From the NCBI GenBank assembly GCA_021739695.1, contig JAIPBM010000003.1, forward strand, positions 124,001 to 188,000: a stretch of DNA of 64,000 nucleotides, written 5' to 3'. Under the pieces are notes generated by a model that worked only from the letters and a program-made list of their open reading frames with translations, ran no database searches and was not told the DNA's origin. Position numbers and translations under genes: made by a program. Each line of letters starts with the position of its first letter. The first letter of the stretch is position 1. The DNA is from Flavobacteriales bacterium. GTDB lineage: Bacteria; Bacteroidota; Bacteroidia; UBA10329. Below, in pieces: positions 28,469 to 64,000 of the stretch.

Positions 28469-28891
28469 TCAATAAGTTTTAACCATTTCATTCAACATTA
28501 GTCGAAGCTTTTCTACGATTTCAAGGCCAGAAATGCCATCAGACAAACCGAAGACCAAGCGCTTTCTGTAAGTTTTTTTCTTATCCAGAACCAATACCTG
28601 ATCTACACATCCATCAAGATCGGAATGACAATTGACAGAAACGGTGTTATCCGTTTCAGAAAACTTCAGTGTCGCCATGTCCAGATCAAACACATTCACT
28701 TTTTCTGTTTTAACCTGTTTGCCTTCTCGGAAACCATTAACTAACAGAATCTTCCCCTTATTACTCACGTTATATTCTTTCCCGATAGCTTCGTTAAATG
28801 CATCGATACGCGCATCGACATCTTGTCCATAACTGATGGCAGTTACGAACATCAAACTGAAAACAAGAAAAGGTAAAGGAAGGATATGCAA
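28469..28891 (-). CDS. hypothetical secreted protein
   Basis: A 140-residue protein with signal peptide MHILPLPFLVFSLMFVTAIS and a mature beta-rich domain with two cysteines (CHSDLDGCVDQ). I recognise no family. It is first in a three-gene minus-strand run with a TPR protein and another small secreted protein, and it diverges from the coiled-coil gene at 28943, leaving a 51-base shared promoter region. Confidence 0.5.
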   Translation of the reverse strand: MHILPLPFLVFSLMFVTAISYGQDVDARIDAFNEAIGKEYNVSNKGKILLVNGFREGKQVKTEKVNVFDLDMATLKFSETDNTVSVNCHSDLDGCVDQVLVLDKKKTYRKRLVFGLSDGISGLEIVEKLRLMLNEMVKTY

Positions 28892-28942
28892 GTGGTAGGA
28901 TTTTCTACTTTTAAGACTTTCTCAGATACAACTATCTGGCCA

Positions 28943-30541
28943 ATGCCATTTTTGTTTAAACGACTATTACTCTTTTTACTGGTTTTTGTTTCATCAGAGC
29001 TGATGGGACAGAACTTGTCCATCCTCATTAAGTTTGAAGTGAACGGAGGAAATTTCAACGACACCAAGGTCACAATTACCGAAAACGGAAAAGTTAAAGA
29101 GGTTTTTGAGCCCGGAAAAGCCAAGATGGTTCCGGAGCTTGGTTTTGGGAATAGTTATATCGTTACGTTCGAAAAACCGGGGTACATAACTAAACGGGTA
29201 GAAATTAGCACCAAAAATGTACCAGAGGATATTCGAGAAGATGACCTGGACTTTGACTTTGCGGTAGAAATATTTGAACAGTATGAAGGCGTAAACACAG
29301 TCATCTTCAACCAGCCTGTAGCGAAGTGGTTCTACGACACACAGGAAGACGCTTTTACCTACGATACAGATTACACGAAAAGCATTCGATCTGCCCTGAT
29401 CAATTTTGATAAAGAATATGAAGCTGCGAAGGAAAACAAACCTGACCCATCGGCAGAAGCTTTAAAAGCAAAACAAGCTGAGGAAGCACGATTGGCAGCA
29501 GAGGCCAAAGCAAATGCTGCAGAGGAGCAACGACTTCTTGCAGAAGCGAAGGCCGCAGAAGAAGCTAAAAAACGACAAGAACAAGAAGCGCGACTAGCTG
29601 AAGAAGCAAGAAAGAAACAAGAACAGGAACTGGCCGAAAAACAAGCGTTGAAAGAGCAAGAATTGCAAAATGCACAGGTCAAATTGGATGAGGAGCAGAA
29701 ACGATCAGTACAAGAAAAACTAGATCAGGAGCAGCGAGAAGCTCAGCTCAAATCGGAAGAAGAAGCGAGAAAACAACTTGAGGCAAAAGGAGCTGAAGAA
29801 AAGCGGTTGGCGCAGGCCAAAGCTGATGAAGACAAGCGAAATTCAGAAATGCGAGCTGCAGAAGAAGCCAGACAAAAGGCTGAATCCAAAGCCGATGAAG
29901 AAGCTAAGAAACAAGAAGCTGTTAGATTGGCTGAAGAAGAACGAGCCAGAAAGAAGGCTGAGATTGAAGCCGAAATGAAGAAGGCTGAGCAAGAATCTGC
30001 TCAGGAAGCAAAACGAAGAGCACAATTAGAAAAGGAAGAGATTGAAAAACGGCAACGAGATGCCGATGCTCGAATGGCCGAAGAAGCGCGATCAGCTGCA
30101 TTACAAGCTGCAGAAGCTGAGAAAAAGAGAATAACTGAAGAAGCACGACTGGCAGAGGAAACACGGCAAAAAGCGTTGCAAGACCAAGCCTACGAAGAAG
30201 AACGGAAAAAAAGAGCCCAAGCTGATTTTGAAGCAGAGCAAAGACGATTGGCACAAGCAAAGGCCGTTAGCGAATCGCAGCAGCGAGATAGGTCTGAAGC
30301 TGTAGCTAAAATGGAAGAAGAAAGAAAGAGTCTGGCCATAAAAGATGCTGGAAACGTAGTTTCTCGAACGGAAGAATTGATTGAAGAAGTGAATCGGAAG
30401 ATCACACAGATAACCGTGAAGCGTGAGAATATGACCTACGTGTACAAGAAAGTGGTATATAACTGGGGCGGTGTTTACTATTTCCGTGATGACACAGACA
30501 TCACCAAATTCGTATTCGAAAACGAAACCAGCGTCAAATAG
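28943..30541 (+). CDS. secreted protein with long alanine/glutamate/lysine coiled coil
   Basis: A 532-residue protein. The ATG at 28943 (MPFLFKRLLLFLLVFVSSEL) gives a signal peptide; the longer frame would overlap the divergent gene. Residues about 25-105 form a small beta domain like a PEGA or carboxypeptidase-regulatory unit (VTITENGKVKEVFEPGK, GFGNSYIVTFEKPGYITKRV). About residues 160-460 are an almost unbroken charged helix with repeats such as AKAAEEAKKRQEQEARLAEE, resembling TolA domain II. A short C-terminal domain follows (ITVKRENMTYVYKKV, YNWGGVYYFRDD). It may span the periplasm or form a filament. The stop touches the next gene's start with no spacer. Confidence 0.65.
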   Translation: MPFLFKRLLLFLLVFVSSELMGQNLSILIKFEVNGGNFNDTKVTITENGKVKEVFEPGKAKMVPELGFGNSYIVTFEKPGYITKRVEISTKNVPEDIREDDLDFDFAVEIFEQYEGVNTVIFNQPVAKWFYDTQEDAFTYDTDYTKSIRSALINFDKEYEAAKENKPDPSAEALKAKQAEEARLAAEAKANAAEEQRLLAEAKAAEEAKKRQEQEARLAEEARKKQEQELAEKQALKEQELQNAQVKLDEEQKRSVQEKLDQEQREAQLKSEEEARKQLEAKGAEEKRLAQAKADEDKRNSEMRAAEEARQKAESKADEEAKKQEAVRLAEEERARKKAEIEAEMKKAEQESAQEAKRRAQLEKEEIEKRQRDADARMAEEARSAALQAAEAEKKRITEEARLAEETRQKALQDQAYEEERKKRAQADFEAEQRRLAQAKAVSESQQRDRSEAVAKMEEERKSLAIKDAGNVVSRTEELIEEVNRKITQITVKRENMTYVYKKVVYNWGGVYYFRDDTDITKFVFENETSVK

Positions 30542-44988: not shown

Positions 44989-45017
44989 CTGCGGACAAGA
45001 ACTTGCAAAGTAAACGT

Positions 45018-45043
45018 GAGGGATGGAAGCGGCATCCTTTTTT
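45018..45043 (+). terminator. probable terminator after the VWA gene
   Basis: GGATG at 45021-45025 and CATCC at 45033-45037 form a short stem followed by a run of six T. A second perfect 7-bp hairpin (CCCCGAT/ATCGGGG, 45107-45125) lies downstream without a T run. Confidence 0.55.
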
Positions 45044-45204
45044 CATTCACTTACATTTCGAGAACCTCAGTGCCCGTGCTGAAAAAAGATACAGCGAACA
45101 GCCCGGCCCCGATTTTTCATCGGGGACACGCCCTATAATCTTTTGAACAATTTTTGAGTTCCAATGCATACATCGGAAATTGATCTTATTTTAGTGCTCT
45201 ACAG

Positions 45205-57996: not shown

Positions 57997-58509
57997 ATGG
58001 TCTTAAAAATACTTGCCATTACTCTAAGTTCTGCAATACTGATTGTAAGCAACTGCTTAGGTCAAGAGGAGTTTTACGATCAAAAATTCAATAAAGTTGA
58101 TGCCAAGAATATTTTTTACTTCAAAAAGGCTATCGGATATGAAGATGCCGGAATAGATACCTATTCGATTGGAGACGAAATAGTTATGGAATTTTTAGAC
58201 CCAGTGACTGGAGCATTCTTAGGAGTTTTTGCCGATACTTCGAAAATCAACTTATCTGAATTACACTATCTCAAAAACGACAGTAAGATGAGAAGATTGT
58301 TATCAAAGTATTCAAGCCCTATTGCAATTCGTATTTATGAAGGAAAAGTATTCATTGGCATGTCAAAAGACGAAGCCGAAGAAAGTTGGGGAAAGCCTAA
58401 TGACATCAATCGTACAATAACGGAGAACCTAGTTTCAGAGCAATGGGTCTATCCCAATGGACAGTACCTATATTTTGAGAATGGAGTACTTACCGCAATT
58501 CAAGATTAA
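57997..58509 (+). CDS. small secreted BamE/SmpA-like protein
   Basis: A 170-residue protein with signal peptide MVLKILAITLSSAILIVSNC (the Cys followed by LGQ is a possible lipobox) and a mature domain whose end resembles the BamE/SmpA/OmlA fold (GMSKDEAEESWGKPNDINR, SEQWVYPNGQYLYFENG). Its base composition is more A+T-rich than the pnt genes and marks the start of the accessory stretch. The next gene (DUF4238) reads in the same frame past this stop. Confidence 0.6.
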   Translation: MVLKILAITLSSAILIVSNCLGQEEFYDQKFNKVDAKNIFYFKKAIGYEDAGIDTYSIGDEIVMEFLDPVTGAFLGVFADTSKINLSELHYLKNDSKMRRLLSKYSSPIAIRIYEGKVFIGMSKDEAEESWGKPNDINRTITENLVSEQWVYPNGQYLYFENGVLTAIQD

Positions 58510-58542
58510 AACAGTCCTAAACGATATTCAAAAACTTCTGTC

Positions 58543-59430
58543 ATAGCCTCCAATAAGAAACAACATATTGTACCAAAAACTTACCTCAAGCATTGGAAGG
58601 CAGCTGATAGGAATAGTGAAGTGTACGGAATAAATTTCGGAGACAAATACAAGAAGCTTGTAAGGCCTTTTGGCTTGGAAGACCAAGTCTTTAAGAGGAC
58701 GAATTATTATGACAATAATTATTCCAAGTATCCGAAATTTATTGAGATTGACATACTGAGTCGGGAAGTAGAACCTTATTACGATAAAATCATGTCAGTA
58801 GTGGGCTCTCATGAACCACTTACAGAAGACCTCCTTCAGACTATCGCATTATGGATACTTTTCTCCGACTTGAGAAAACCTAGTTATCGAAACGATGCTC
58901 AGAGAATCTCAGAATTTACGTTGAAAACTATTTCCTTCCAGAGATACGGATCCAGAACGCAAGAACTTGATAAAACGATAGAATCGGTTTCTGTTCAAAT
59001 GGGTAAAAAATCTCAACTCTACGGACTATCCAATCCTAAGATGCTTAAGAATTTGATGGATTTGTTCCTTCGAATTCTTTGTACAAAGCGATGGCGTTTT
59101 CTAAAAGCAGTAGAAGGTTTCACATTTTGGACAAATGATAGTCCTGGATTTTCAGTTAACACAAATCCCCTAACAAACACAAAAACACCATATTTTGATT
59201 GTTTAGAGATGAATAAAAACTCAATTAATTACTATCCATTATCTCCCTATTTATGTTTAGAAATAAGCCCATATCCCGAATCAGGCGAAGAGGGCAACTT
59301 GGGTGCTTACGGTTATTCTCAAGCAAACCTCGAATTGATGAACTTCATTAATGACGGAGTGGTCGCGACACACAATCAGATGGTAATTGCCAATAACAAG
59401 GAGGAGCTTGAAAAGCACATTAAGTGGTAA
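58543..59430 (+). CDS. DUF4238 protein, start codon not canonical
   Basis: Up to 295 residues. The conserved DUF4238 start QHIVPKTYLKHW lies before the first GTG (58621), so the true N-terminus is upstream. The only codon at the right place is ATA at 58543, which would give a natural ASNKKQHIVPKTYL; an in-frame TAA (the end of the preceding gene) lies at 58507. The body matches the family (ETIALWILFSDLRKP-like helical part, FWTNDSPGFSVNT and PLSPYLCLEISPYP). The gene is A+T-rich and hints at transfer. It may be a working gene with a rare start or a decaying one. Confidence 0.6.
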   Translation: MASNKKQHIVPKTYLKHWKAADRNSEVYGINFGDKYKKLVRPFGLEDQVFKRTNYYDNNYSKYPKFIEIDILSREVEPYYDKIMSVVGSHEPLTEDLLQTIALWILFSDLRKPSYRNDAQRISEFTLKTISFQRYGSRTQELDKTIESVSVQMGKKSQLYGLSNPKMLKNLMDLFLRILCTKRWRFLKAVEGFTFWTNDSPGFSVNTNPLTNTKTPYFDCLEMNKNSINYYPLSPYLCLEISPYPESGEEGNLGAYGYSQANLELMNFINDGVVATHNQMVIANNKEELEKHIKW

Positions 59431-59476
59431 ATCCTCGCTGGCGCAAGTTTGCAACTTGTACCTCCAACCCCACCCC

Positions 59477-59540
59477 TTTCTTAGCTACTGAAAAGCGTTC
59501 TTAGCCAAGACCTAAGAGGTTTTGAAAATCTTGAAGGTCT
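59477..59540 (+). repeat. dispersed hairpin repeat, copy 1
   Basis: Contains TTCTTAGC, ACTGAAAAGCG, TTCTTAGCCAAGACCTAAGA and then an imperfect inverted repeat around GGTTTTGAAAATC with AGGTCT at the end. It follows the DUF4238 gene and is preceded by GTTTGCAAC, also seen before copy 2. Confidence 0.65.
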
Positions 59541-59641
59541 ATTCTTCACGTATGTCTGCAAATTAGTCTATATTCAGAATCAGGGTAGCAAGGAATTTGA
59601 TGGTATACATTAAAAAACTAACTTTTAATTTCAATTAATAA

Positions 59642-59953
59642 ATGATCAATAACACTAGGCTTACAAGTTCATTGATTCCAAATGCATTTTTTGCTGCATT
59701 AATTATCCTTTTTTGCTCATGCAATAATGAAGAATCAATAAGATGCTGTCGAAACACGTACGTAGAAAATGGTGAAATCGGTGCTCTAAACCTAACGTCA
59801 CCTATTTGTGATACGAACTACTTGGAAGTAGTTAACGGTGTGAATTTGTTGTATGGCGATTCAGCCCCATGGTTGCATGTAGATACTTGGAACGAGTTCG
59901 TGGAATTAGTCAATGATAACCAACTTGGGTTGGAATGGGTTTGTGATGAATAG
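59642..59953 (+). CDS. hypothetical small lipoprotein
   Basis: A 103-residue protein with a hydrophobic N-terminal helix and a Cys in LILFCSCNNEE that could be a lipobox. The mature part has four further cysteines (RCCRN, ICDTN, WVCDE). No known family. It begins at ATG 59642 and is followed by the second repeat copy. The flanking 59431-59641 and 59954-60020 stretches hold no gene. Confidence 0.5.
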   Translation: MINNTRLTSSLIPNAFFAALIILFCSCNNEESIRCCRNTYVENGEIGALNLTSPICDTNYLEVVNGVNLLYGDSAPWLHVDTWNEFVELVNDNQLGLEWVCDE

Positions 59954-60020: not shown

Positions 60021-60087
60021 TATTTCCTAGCCACTGAAATGCGTTCTTAGCCAAGTCCTACGAGGTTTTTAGAAACCTCGTAGGTCT
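60021..60087 (+). repeat. dispersed hairpin repeat, copy 2 (most complete)
   Basis: Same order as copy 1, TTCCTAGCCACTGAAATGCG, TTCTTAGCCAAGTCC, then a perfect 12-bp inverted repeat (CCTACGAGGTTT at 60057-60068 and AAACCTCGTAGG at 60073-60084) and TCT. It directly precedes array 1. Confidence 0.75.
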
Positions 60088-60171
60088 GAGCATTGCGGCT
60101 GTTTCGCTGATGGATTTGAGCACAAACCCATTTTAATATTGGAGCAAAAGGCACTTTTTTGCCGTTTCCAT

Positions 60172-60402
60172 AGCTCTTTCTGTCATCGGAAGAGCTCTTT
60201 TCATCATCGGAAGAGCTATGGCAACCATTTCCTTAGCTCTTTTTGTCGTTGGAAGAGCTATGGCAGTCATTTCCTTAGCTCTTTCTGTCAGTGGAAGAGC
60301 TATGGAAACCATTTCCTTAGCTCTTTTTGTCAGTGGAAGAGCTATGGCAGCCATTTCCTTAGCTCTTTCCCTCTCTTCCTTAGCTCTTTCGGTCACGTGG
60401 AA
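60172..60402. repeat. 21-bp phased AGCT array 1 (11 units)
   Basis: AGCT occurs at 60172, 60193, 60214, 60235, 60256, 60277, 60298, 60319, 60340, 60361 and 60382: eleven copies at exactly 21-bp steps. Alternate units are inverted versions of one another (CCTTAGCTCTTT against GAAGAGCTATGG), so neighbouring units can form hairpins with about 10 of 11 pairs. A minus-strand reading frame runs through it with a 14-residue period (RAKEMVAIALPLTE-like); differences between units are not mostly synonymous, so I treat it as non-coding. Confidence 0.9.
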
Positions 60403-60410
60403 AAACGGTT

Positions 60411-60474
60411 TTTCTTAGCTGTTGAAATCAGTTCTTAGCCAAAACCTTCAAGGTTTTGAAATGCTCGTAGGTCT
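60411..60474 (+). repeat. dispersed hairpin repeat, copy 3
   Basis: TTCTTAGCTGTTGAAATCAG, TTCTTAGCCAAAACCTTCAA, then GGTTTTGAAATG, CTCGTAGGTCTGAC. It separates array 1 from array 2. Confidence 0.7.
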
Positions 60475-60483
60475 GACTGCCGA

Positions 60484-60505
60484 CACAGTTTATTGAACAG
60501 ACTCC
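60484..60505. repeat. 22-base copy of the hydrolase gene's 3' end
   Basis: Identical at 21 of 22 bases to 61550-61571, which covers the stop and last codons of the alpha/beta hydrolase. It sits between dispersed repeat copy 3 and array 2, while the original sits beside copy 4. Confidence 0.6.
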
Positions 60506-60522: not shown

Positions 60523-60743
60523 AGCTTGTTCTGTGTCTTCCTAAGCTATGGCAGCCTTTGGCATAGCTTGGGCAAAGGTTTTCTAAGCTATGGCGGTCTC
60601 TTCCTAAGCTATGGCAGCCTTCGGCATAGCTTGGGCAAAGGTTTACTAAGCTTGTTTTGTGTCTTCCTAAGCTATGGCAGCCTTTGGCATAGCTTGGGCA
60701 GAGGTTTCCTAAGCTTGTTTTGTGTCTTCCTAAGCTTATTCGC
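60523..60743. repeat. 21-bp phased AGCT array 2 (11 units)
   Basis: AGCT occurs at 60523, 60544, 60565, 60586, 60607, 60628, 60649, 60670, 60691, 60712 and 60733: eleven copies at exactly 21-bp steps, the same number and step as array 1 but with different spacer sequence (CTATGGCAGCCTTTGGCAT, TTGGGCAAAGGTTT and TTGTTTTGTGTCTTCCTA types). Adjacent units often pair as AAGCTATG...CATAGCTT. The plus frame has a 7-residue period (FLSLFCV, FLSYGSL) and no recognisable protein. The stretch 60744-61015 shows no gene. Confidence 0.9.
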
Positions 60744-61490: not shown

Positions 61491-61548
61491 ATCTTTAACT
61501 GCTGAAATACGTTCTTAGGCCAGACCTTCAAGGAAAAACCTTGAACTG
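61491..61548 (+). repeat. dispersed hairpin repeat, copy 4
   Basis: TTTAACTGCTGAAATACG, TTCTTAGGCCAGACC, then TTCAAGGAAAAACCTTGAA, an intact inverted repeat, next to the 3' end of the hydrolase gene. Confidence 0.65.
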
Positions 61549-61555
61549 TCACAGT

Positions 61556-62212
61556 TTATTGAATAGACTCCATTACTGCGGTCAGATCAACCTTCTCCAA
61601 TGGGTGAGGCTGACCTTCCAACTCCACGTAGCGTGCATTGGGAATATGCTTCTGTGCCCAAAGCGTTTCATCTTTCGAAACCATGGCATCTTCGCTGCCG
61701 CGCAATAGAAGCACTGGGCATTTTACGGCAGCAAGCAGCTCGGCTGTCAGCGTTGGTGAGTTACCTAAGGCAAGCATCATGTCGGCAGTTCTGAACATAA
61801 CGTCCTTCCAATGATCTCCATGCCGTTGTTGAAGCAAGGCAGCAAAGGCTGGCACCTTCTCCTCCACCTTATCTGGGTTCAACATCCGAATCTCTTGCTG
61901 TGCTCCTTCTGGCGTCCAATCGAATTTGGTGGCGAGTGTGGTTACGCTTTTCACCATTTCAGGGTGTTTGGCAGCCAGATATAAGGCCACGTAACCGCCC
62001 ATGCTGTAACCGAACAGATGGACAGGCTTAGTCAACGATTCAAGCACATTTTCTGCCATGGCTTCTATCGAATACGGTTCACCGTTGGAGGACTTCGCTC
62101 CGTGGCCAGGAAGGTCGAGGCACGCGGCATCGGCTTCAATAAAATCGGCAAGTGGCTGCATCTGCTTAGCTGAACCAAGTGCACCGTGCAGAAAAATTGT
62201 TCGAAAAGACAT
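61556..62212 (-). CDS. alpha/beta-fold hydrolase (MenH-like)
   Basis: A 218-residue cytoplasmic enzyme. ATG 62212 (MSFRTIFLHGALGSAKQMQP) is chosen; the longer frame adds 11 residues. The oxyanion HG motif, nucleophile Ser in FGYSMGGYVAL (about S84), acid in GSEDAMVSK (about D172) and His in GQPHPLEKVD (about H198) are all present. This resembles the small hydrolases of the MenH or BioH group. The substrate cannot be told. Confidence 0.85.
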   Translation of the reverse strand: MSFRTIFLHGALGSAKQMQPLADFIEADAACLDLPGHGAKSSNGEPYSIEAMAENVLESLTKPVHLFGYSMGGYVALYLAAKHPEMVKSVTTLATKFDWTPEGAQQEIRMLNPDKVEEKVPAFAALLQQRHGDHWKDVMFRTADMMLALGNSPTLTAELLAAVKCPVLLLRGSEDAMVSKDETLWAQKHIPNARYVELEGQPHPLEKVDLTAVMESIQ

Positions 62213-62324
62213 GCGACAAAGAATGGGAAAAAGTTTCTCTCCCAAAAGCTGAGGTTTACTTTGGTGCTATGGCCTTGGCCAAGTTGCAAGGACTGCCATC
62301 TTCTCCATTCCCTCTAGCAAGCAA

Positions 62325-62356
62325 CCCTACAAGGTTTCTAAAAACCGAGTAGGGCT
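62325..62356 (+). repeat. dispersed hairpin repeat, partial copy 5
   Basis: ACCCTACAAGGTTTCTAAAA, then ACCGAGTAGGGCT: only the inverted-repeat core of the family, with mismatches, upstream of the hydrolase. Confidence 0.5.
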
Positions 62357-62383: not shown

Positions 62384-62950
62384 TCAATGGCAGATCAGGT
62401 TCTTACCACAGATGCTTTTCCGATTGGTAAGCAGACCACCGTTCATTACCAGCTGCACATCGCTGAAATTGAGCGTCACATTTCCGTTGGCATCAGCCGT
62501 TGCCTCTACGGTTCCGCTGTCGCTATCGCTGAACCAGCTGCTTTGGTCATCCTCTGTTTCTTCGTAAAAGTTCATTCTGAAGGTTGCCAATCCGGCAGGT
62601 GCTGCCGTACTTGCTATTTGCCACATGCCATTATCGAGCTGATACGTGGTGGTCTGCCCCGCTGGAGGAACACTGCTAAGCGTAACGTTGATGGCCGGAA
62701 TGATGAGCGTACTACCTGAACCATAGATCACATCGCGCAGATGGGTGAACCACACCGCTCCGTTTATAGGGGTTTGACCGCAATTGTAAGCGCCTGCCTC
62801 ATGCCAAGGAAAAGCCTTTCCATCAATGATGATGAGGTCATCCGTCAGATCGGCACAGGTAAGTGAGCCTACATCAGTCTTGTCTTTAACACATCCTTGC
62901 AAAATGGCAGCAACGGCCACAAGCAGCACAATTGAGAACTTGGTATTCAT
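62384..62950 (-). CDS. hypothetical lipoprotein
   Basis: A 188-residue protein with signal peptide and lipobox LQGC after MNTKFSIVLLVAVAAI. The mature domain is beta-rich and ends in SICGKNLICH, with two cysteines in the last 8 residues. VYLDNG-like strands (TTTYQLDNGMWQIAST) suggest a beta-sandwich. I recognise no family. It lies opposite to the preceding lipoprotein gene and is part of the accessory region. Confidence 0.55.
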   Translation of the reverse strand: MNTKFSIVLLVAVAAILQGCVKDKTDVGSLTCADLTDDLIIIDGKAFPWHEAGAYNCGQTPINGAVWFTHLRDVIYGSGSTLIIPAINVTLSSVPPAGQTTTYQLDNGMWQIASTAAPAGLATFRMNFYEETEDDQSSWFSDSDSGTVEATADANGNVTLNFSDVQLVMNGGLLTNRKSICGKNLICH

Positions 62951-63208: not shown

Positions 63209-63525
63209 GCAAATTCCAGCATAGCAATTGGTCCATGGATTACGGTTTTCGGTATTGCTAGTGCCACTTTTGGTTTTCCAATTATCATATTCGGTATTTC
63301 TACATCCACTATTGGTATTTCTAGAGCCTTCCTTGGTTATTCTACAGAGGCTCTTGGTATTGCTAGAACCACTCTCGGTATTTCTAGAGCCACTATCGGT
63401 ATTTAAATAATGAGTATAGAAATACCAACCATCATGCTTGGAATACGAATTGCCGTTCCCGAAATACCAATTATCAGTTCTGAAAGAACAACGGTCGCTT
63501 CCGAAATAGCTTCTGTGGCTTTCCG
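63209..63525. repeat. 21-bp phased GGTATT/AATACC array 3
   Basis: GGTATT or a close variant begins at 63230 (GGTCCA), 63251, 63272, 63293, 63314, 63335, 63356, 63377 and 63398, all at 21-bp steps. After a centre near 63404-63420 the motif inverts: AATACC at 63421, AATACG at 63442, AATACC at 63463, then AAGAAC at 63484 and AATAGC at 63505, again 21 bases apart. A weaker unit may start at 63209. The plus frame 63228-63410 has a leucine-rich 7-residue period but no known match. The stretch 62951-63208 shows no gene. Confidence 0.9.
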
Positions 63526-63557: not shown

Positions 63558-64000
63558 TTAATCCTTCACACAGCGACAGCTGATGCCCGAGTTCTTGTCT
63601 GTATTCCAATTCCAAACATTGTCTTCTCCGAGGTTATACATGAGAAAGATACCGCCATCGGTGGCGCTCATGGGCACGCTCGACCAGAAAGCCGCTTCGT
63701 CATGCGCAAAATTGAAGTCGTAGCGAGAGCCTCCATTAGGGGCATTGAAACCACTGCTACCAGTGGCATTGCCTAAAGTCCATCCTGTGGCAGACTTCAG
63801 TGCAGGTGCTGCTACATTGATACCTCCCAAAGCATCCATCAGGTCGGTCCATTCGGCATCGTTCGGCAAGTGCCAACCGTCTGGGCAAATTCCATTGCTG
63901 CTGGTGGCCGCATACCAATTGTAAAGGCGTCCTAAGGATGTGGCGTAGCTGGCATTATTATCCAAAATGGTGTAGGCTCCGGCTGAGGTATTGACCCAAG
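63558..64000 (-). CDS. FISUMP-domain protein, C-terminal part
   Basis: The frame is open to the right edge, so the gene starts outside the window; about 146 residues are visible (end 63558). They match the Fibrobacter succinogenes major paralogous (FISUMP) domain: LGRLYNWYAAT, CPDGWHLPNDAEWTDLMDAL, GFNAPNGGSRYD, AAFWSSVPMS and the end SGISCRCVKD. Such domains occur in secreted or lipoprotein surface proteins of Bacteroidota. Function is unknown; the two Cys in CRC may pair with Cys elsewhere. Confidence 0.85.
   Translation of the reverse strand, partial: WVNTSAGAYTILDNNASYATSLGRLYNWYAATSSNGICPDGWHLPNDAEWTDLMDALGGINVAAPALKSATGWTLGNATGSSGFNAPNGGSRYDFNFAHDEAAFWSSVPMSATDGGIFLMYNLGEDNVWNWNTDKNSGISCRCVKD

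Follow-up and report, generated by a model that had tools for sequence, protein, structure and literature searches.

The window analysed here, a stretch of 64,000 nucleotides from the genome of a Flavobacteriales bacterium (4.24 Mb in 53 contigs), carries at positions 63209-63525 a tandem array of short repeats with a GGTATT core, which is intergenic and lies between two minus-strand genes, one for a predicted lipoprotein and the other with PKD and Fib_succ_major matches (Table 1). Two sibling arrays with an AGCT core are also present; the first is separated from a PNTB gene by an AT-rich segment with a DUF4238 gene (57997-59953), and the distance between the PNTB gene and this array is much shorter in G003, another genome of the genus. 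A dispersed palindromic element (..CTTAGCCAA..ACCTTCAAGGTTTTGAAA..AGGTCT) recurs among the arrays and genes of the window, at about 59495-59543, 60044-60089, 60436-60478, 61512-61540 and 62322-62350. A long open frame at 28886-30541 contains internal repeats at lags 18, 27, 36 and 69.

Table 1. Features of the GGTATT array and its surroundings (window positions)
Feature	Position	Strand	Description
Sibling array 1, AGCT core	60172-60402		11 units of 21 bp; 42-bp higher order
Solitary IS256-family terminal repeat	60482-60503	+	GACACAGTTTATTGAACAGACT; points into sibling array 2
Sibling array 2, AGCT core	60523-60736		21 bp; 63-bp higher order; related copies on contigs C9 and C41
Flanking gene, predicted lipoprotein	62384-62950	-	188 aa; no Pfam family; start 259 bp from array
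Forward half	63230-63403	+	nine 21-bp steps, GGTATT or variants at unit start; consensus GGTATTTCTAGAGCCACTCTT
Turning point	63398-63426		29 bp, GGTATTTAAATAATGAGTATAGAAATACC; last forward hexamer to first inverted hexamer
Inverted half	63406-63510	-	five 21-bp units on an exact 21-bp grid
Inverted unit 1	63406-63426	-	reads GGTATTTCTATAC..
Inverted unit 2	63427-63447	-	reads CGTATTCCAAG..
Inverted unit 3	63448-63468	-	reads GGTATTTCGGG..
Inverted unit 4	63469-63489	-	reads GTTCTTTCAG..
Inverted unit 5	63490-63510	-	reads GCTATTTCGG..
Flanking gene, PKD and Fib_succ_major	63558-64000, past window end	-	412 aa; ends 32 bp from array

When positions 63209-63525 were compared with themselves, identity was 0.568 for a lag of 21 bases and 0.560 for one of 42, the remaining lags between 10 and 49 giving about 0.35 or lower, whereas 1000 dinucleotide shuffles of the same segment gave 0.261 ± 0.025 at lag 21 and a maximum of 0.363 at any lag. 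The 21-base step also survives other phasing, and the existence of the repeat array is confirmed; no half-unit repeat of 10-11 bases was detected in this segment by the lag test. The nine forward steps of GGTATT or variants placed between 63230 and 63398 in the preliminary description are borne out, with unit starts spaced 21 bases apart at 63230 (a degenerate unit), 63251, 63272, 63293, 63314, 63335, 63356, 63377 and 63398.

The five inverted steps described as following them were scored with a profile built from the forward units and then applied to the right half on both strands. On the minus strand the right half scored 9.5 bits per unit, as opposed to 0.8 on the plus strand, and none of 2000 column-permuted profiles did as well (best, 4.2 bits); the inverted steps are confirmed as well. 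A second GGTATT array, on contig C28, flips with an identical 29-base centre, measured between the initial G of GGTATT and the final C of the inverted counterpart; since the two arrays have a common unit family, the shared turn may reflect common descent. The further claim of a large imperfect inverted repeat holds for the orientation of the units, which does flip, but overstates the base pairing, as the best palindrome arm match of 0.60 is equalled by a period-keeping null that reaches up to 0.60, although aligning the left half without gaps to the reversed right half gave a best score of 21, against a maximum of 15 in 300 shuffles. The finding is thus a change in unit orientation and not a long hairpin, and a long palindrome as the design of the array is rejected.

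A rival reading is that the array is transcribed and acts as a structured or target-binding RNA. Its inverted half is able to base-pair with the forward one, the minus-strand RNA folds somewhat better than shuffles (z -2.0), and bacterial satellites of the 52-nt type are transcribed (PMC8625621). This is improbable, however, because the folding energies are unremarkable overall (z only -1.4 for the plus strand), most other arrays have no inverted half, there is no promoter excess, and no Rfam match was found at the array, the only one in the window being a Flavo-1 RNA at 45008-45112 (RF01705; 47.8 bits, exceeding the gathering score). Since 21 bases correspond to seven codons, the array could also encode a seven-residue repeat, and one minus-strand frame is indeed open for 124 codons. 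The C28 array, however, meets stops in every minus-strand frame, its only open frame lying on the plus strand, so that the two GGTATT arrays lack a common open frame, and the arrays C10, C53b, C8, C14_18k and C5_64k are closed in all six frames; heptad coding is contradicted by these data and retains only the slightest probability. One sampled 42-bp array, C5_16k, sits in a 1081-codon frame and may be coding.

The GGTATT arrays are accompanied in this genome by several families of unrelated sequence. Searches for the two words recovered the C28 array and AGCT arrays on contigs C3, C8, C9, C10, C41 and C53, and a word-independent sample of 800 kb elsewhere in the genome, in which tandem arrays of at least 60 bp outside long open frames were collected, yielded eight non-coding arrays with periods of 21 (two), 42 (four), 41 (one) and 28 (one). 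Seven of these eight therefore have a period of 21, 42 or 41, with unit sequences that differ from one another, and scaling from the sample suggests a few dozen arrays genome-wide. A 41-base-period array, about twice 20.5 bases, is present on contig C4 (L082:462-627). In genomes of the same genus, three of five sampled arrays have periods of 21, 42 or 63, and in other families no arrays outside long ORFs were found in 277 kb sampled, although 21-bp AGCT arrays do occur in G014 and G025. The cores include AGCT, GGTATT, TCCGCAA and others, and inspection by eye revealed no word common to all arrays, the AGCT arrays having been picked by a search for AGCT. Self-complementary units are significant in several AGCT arrays and in C53a, but not in C3c or most others, and are rejected as a general rule.

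The AGCT and GGTATT arrays had been proposed to be linked by their spacing and not by their sequence, a view supported by the arrays on other contigs, which keep 21, 42 or 63 bases with unrelated units. When successive units of 27 arrays were compared (the halves of the GGTATT array counted apart, with shifts of up to 3 bases), 219 unit steps were exact and 11 deviated, and letters differed at 1308 of 5628 positions. The comparison covered the units of the arrays themselves, and the number of deviations is biased low in part because the arrays were picked by their 21-base period. The 11 deviations fall in C48, C52, G003a, G004C26 and G008C40, all of them arrays with roughly drawn limits, and no internal deviation was found in own-genome arrays delimited from printed rows. 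Less exposed to this selection is sibling array 1, for which G003 holds 11 AGCT units at the matching place, with similar flanks and other unit letters. There is good support for spacing as the common feature of the arrays. Isolated two-copy 21-bp duplications were not seen outside arrays, so slippage does not commonly yield 21-bp copies here, and frequent 21-bp slippage across the genome is rejected.

Phased repeats of about 21 bases that occur in both orientations, as here, recall iterons and centromere-like sites. Nevertheless, it is very improbable that the array is an iteron or partition site of plasmid or chromosome type, since no replication or partition gene adjoins the GGTATT array and several dozen arrays of unrelated sequence are estimated for one chromosome-sized genome.

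Beside several arrays lies the motif GACACAGTTYRYTGAACAGACY. Two ends of this type bound a 1.33 kb element in G002 (L148), the decayed open frame of which matches Pfam Transposase_mut, and own-genome contigs break about 115 bases inside such ends; the motif is thus the end of an IS256-family element, and the array lies beyond the element and does not belong to it. With a detector for periods of 21, 42 and 63, an array was found on the outer side of 8 of 15 IS256-family ends in the own genome and of 11 of 35 ends in other genomes of the genus; among random non-ORF positions the corresponding shares were 1.6% and 1.3%. These counts take tandem copies of one end separately, and one match in the relatives is a 14-base repeat, which leaves about 7 of 14 independent sites in this genome and 8 of 32 in the relatives. 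A literature search of partial coverage turned up no previous description of 21-bp arrays adjoining IS256 ends. At 2680-2810 of the G002 locus, the end is repeated 52 and 21 bases past the element and is followed by a 21-bp array, and contig C53 (L034, 8007 bases) has IS256-family ends and different 21-bp arrays at both of its ends. Within the window, a solitary IS256-family-like end with two mismatches (61549-61570) has no adjoining array.

These ends raise the possibility, which is unlikely though by no means negligible, that the arrays are functionless products of an amplification with a fixed step of 21-22 bases, perhaps begun at IS256-family ends and copying the adjacent sequence. Such a process would agree with the excess of arrays at the ends, with array edges at which the end itself is repeated in tandem with 21- and 22-base steps, and with the observation that array centres are often more alike than their edges. 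Most arrays, however, have no such end, which was found beside two of seven arrays sampled without regard to ends and at neither side of the GGTATT array at 63209-63525, and young two-copy 21-bp duplications are missing elsewhere. Moreover, an IS256-family end adjoins array 1 in G003 and is absent in this genome, so that insertion beside an existing array is as likely as the birth of an array at the end. Where present, the end stands on one side only and belongs to a minority of arrays; a conserved leader for every array is accordingly rejected, as is a two-sided MITE with ends of the IS256 type, the type covered by the search.

Among known systems, constant-size, variable-sequence tandem repeats were reportedly described in bacteria by Subirana and Messeguer (J Bacteriol 2020). 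The GGTATT array genuinely belongs to this kind and also switches orientation: its nine forward and five inverted units exceed the minimum of four repeats, and its 21-base period, like the 21, 42, 41 and 63 of other arrays, agrees with a constant unit of 20-23 nt. In the parts of their later account drawn on here (Int J Mol Sci 2021; PMC8161180), the same authors describe variable-sequence repeats whose size is constant (20-21 or 52 nt, and in many groups 20-23 nt), and suggest that a protein polymerises on them, 21 bases being two helical turns. The present arrays share with those repeats the size near 21, the varied sequences within a genome, the mostly non-coding location and the genome-wide distribution; one short word per species occurs in most of the arrays described in those parts of the paper, whereas by eye none was seen to run through all arrays of this genome, and those parts include neither an orientation switch within an array nor adjacency to IS256-family elements (PMC8161180). 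Closer in taxonomy are the BrickBuilt and PgRS MITEs of Porphyromonas gingivalis, also of the Bacteroidota, which are intergenic minisatellites of 23 and 41 bases linked to IS terminal repeats, the 23-base repeats being those of BrickBuilt (PMC4596501). BrickBuilt, however, is one repeat family with IS5-type ends, whereas here the units differ, the end is of IS256 type and one-sided, and the GGTATT array has no end of this type.

Taken together, the reading favored here, tentatively and at somewhat less than even probability, is that the GGTATT array, a non-coding, satellite-like array of constant size and variable sequence, would act as a scaffold for a putative protein reading its spacing. 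The preserved feature would be the geometry of the DNA, with two helical turns per unit: a putative protein with loose sequence preference would contact a single face of the helix at each unit, and adjacent molecules would touch and coat the stretch, giving a nucleoid or architectural scaffold. In such a scaffold the orientation switch would cost little, because the grid and not the letters would be read. Counted in favor of this reading are the period and the flip, which exceed their shuffles, the sampled arrays that keep 21, 42 or 41 bases with different sequences, the 219 exact steps against 11 deviations, the lack of isolated 21-bp pairs, and array 1, whose counterpart in a second species also has 11 units but other letters. 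Selection on the spacing, and its reading by a putative protein, are inferred. The genes on either side of an array may be tandem, divergent or convergent, and this variety speaks against a role as promoter or terminator. Subirana and Messeguer, too, suggest a protein scaffold for such repeats (PMC8161180).

Counted against the scaffold are the lack of a half-unit repeat in this array, the fact that no all-array word was seen, and self-complementarity in only some arrays. The corresponding position in related genomes also fails to keep the array, which is absent beside the orthologous lipoprotein gene in G004 and G007, the two same-genus genomes with the orthologue. The exact unit pattern had no match in the species genome collection, from which the genome of the window may itself be missing. 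A broader proposal, which is rather doubtful, is that the 21-bp arrays of this Flavobacteriales genus, whatever their sequence, would make up a single functional class, a scaffold encoded only in the spacing and tolerant of either orientation, and that IS256-family transposition is drawn to them or helps to build them.

Many bacteria are reported to carry tandem repeats in which the length is fixed and the letters are free, and these have lacked an explanation to date. This genome supplies many arrays with unrelated units, two related arrays with the same 29-base turn and an array matched between two species, to which the statistical link with one transposon family is added; together, these resources make it testable whether the spacing is selected or is a by-product of array formation.
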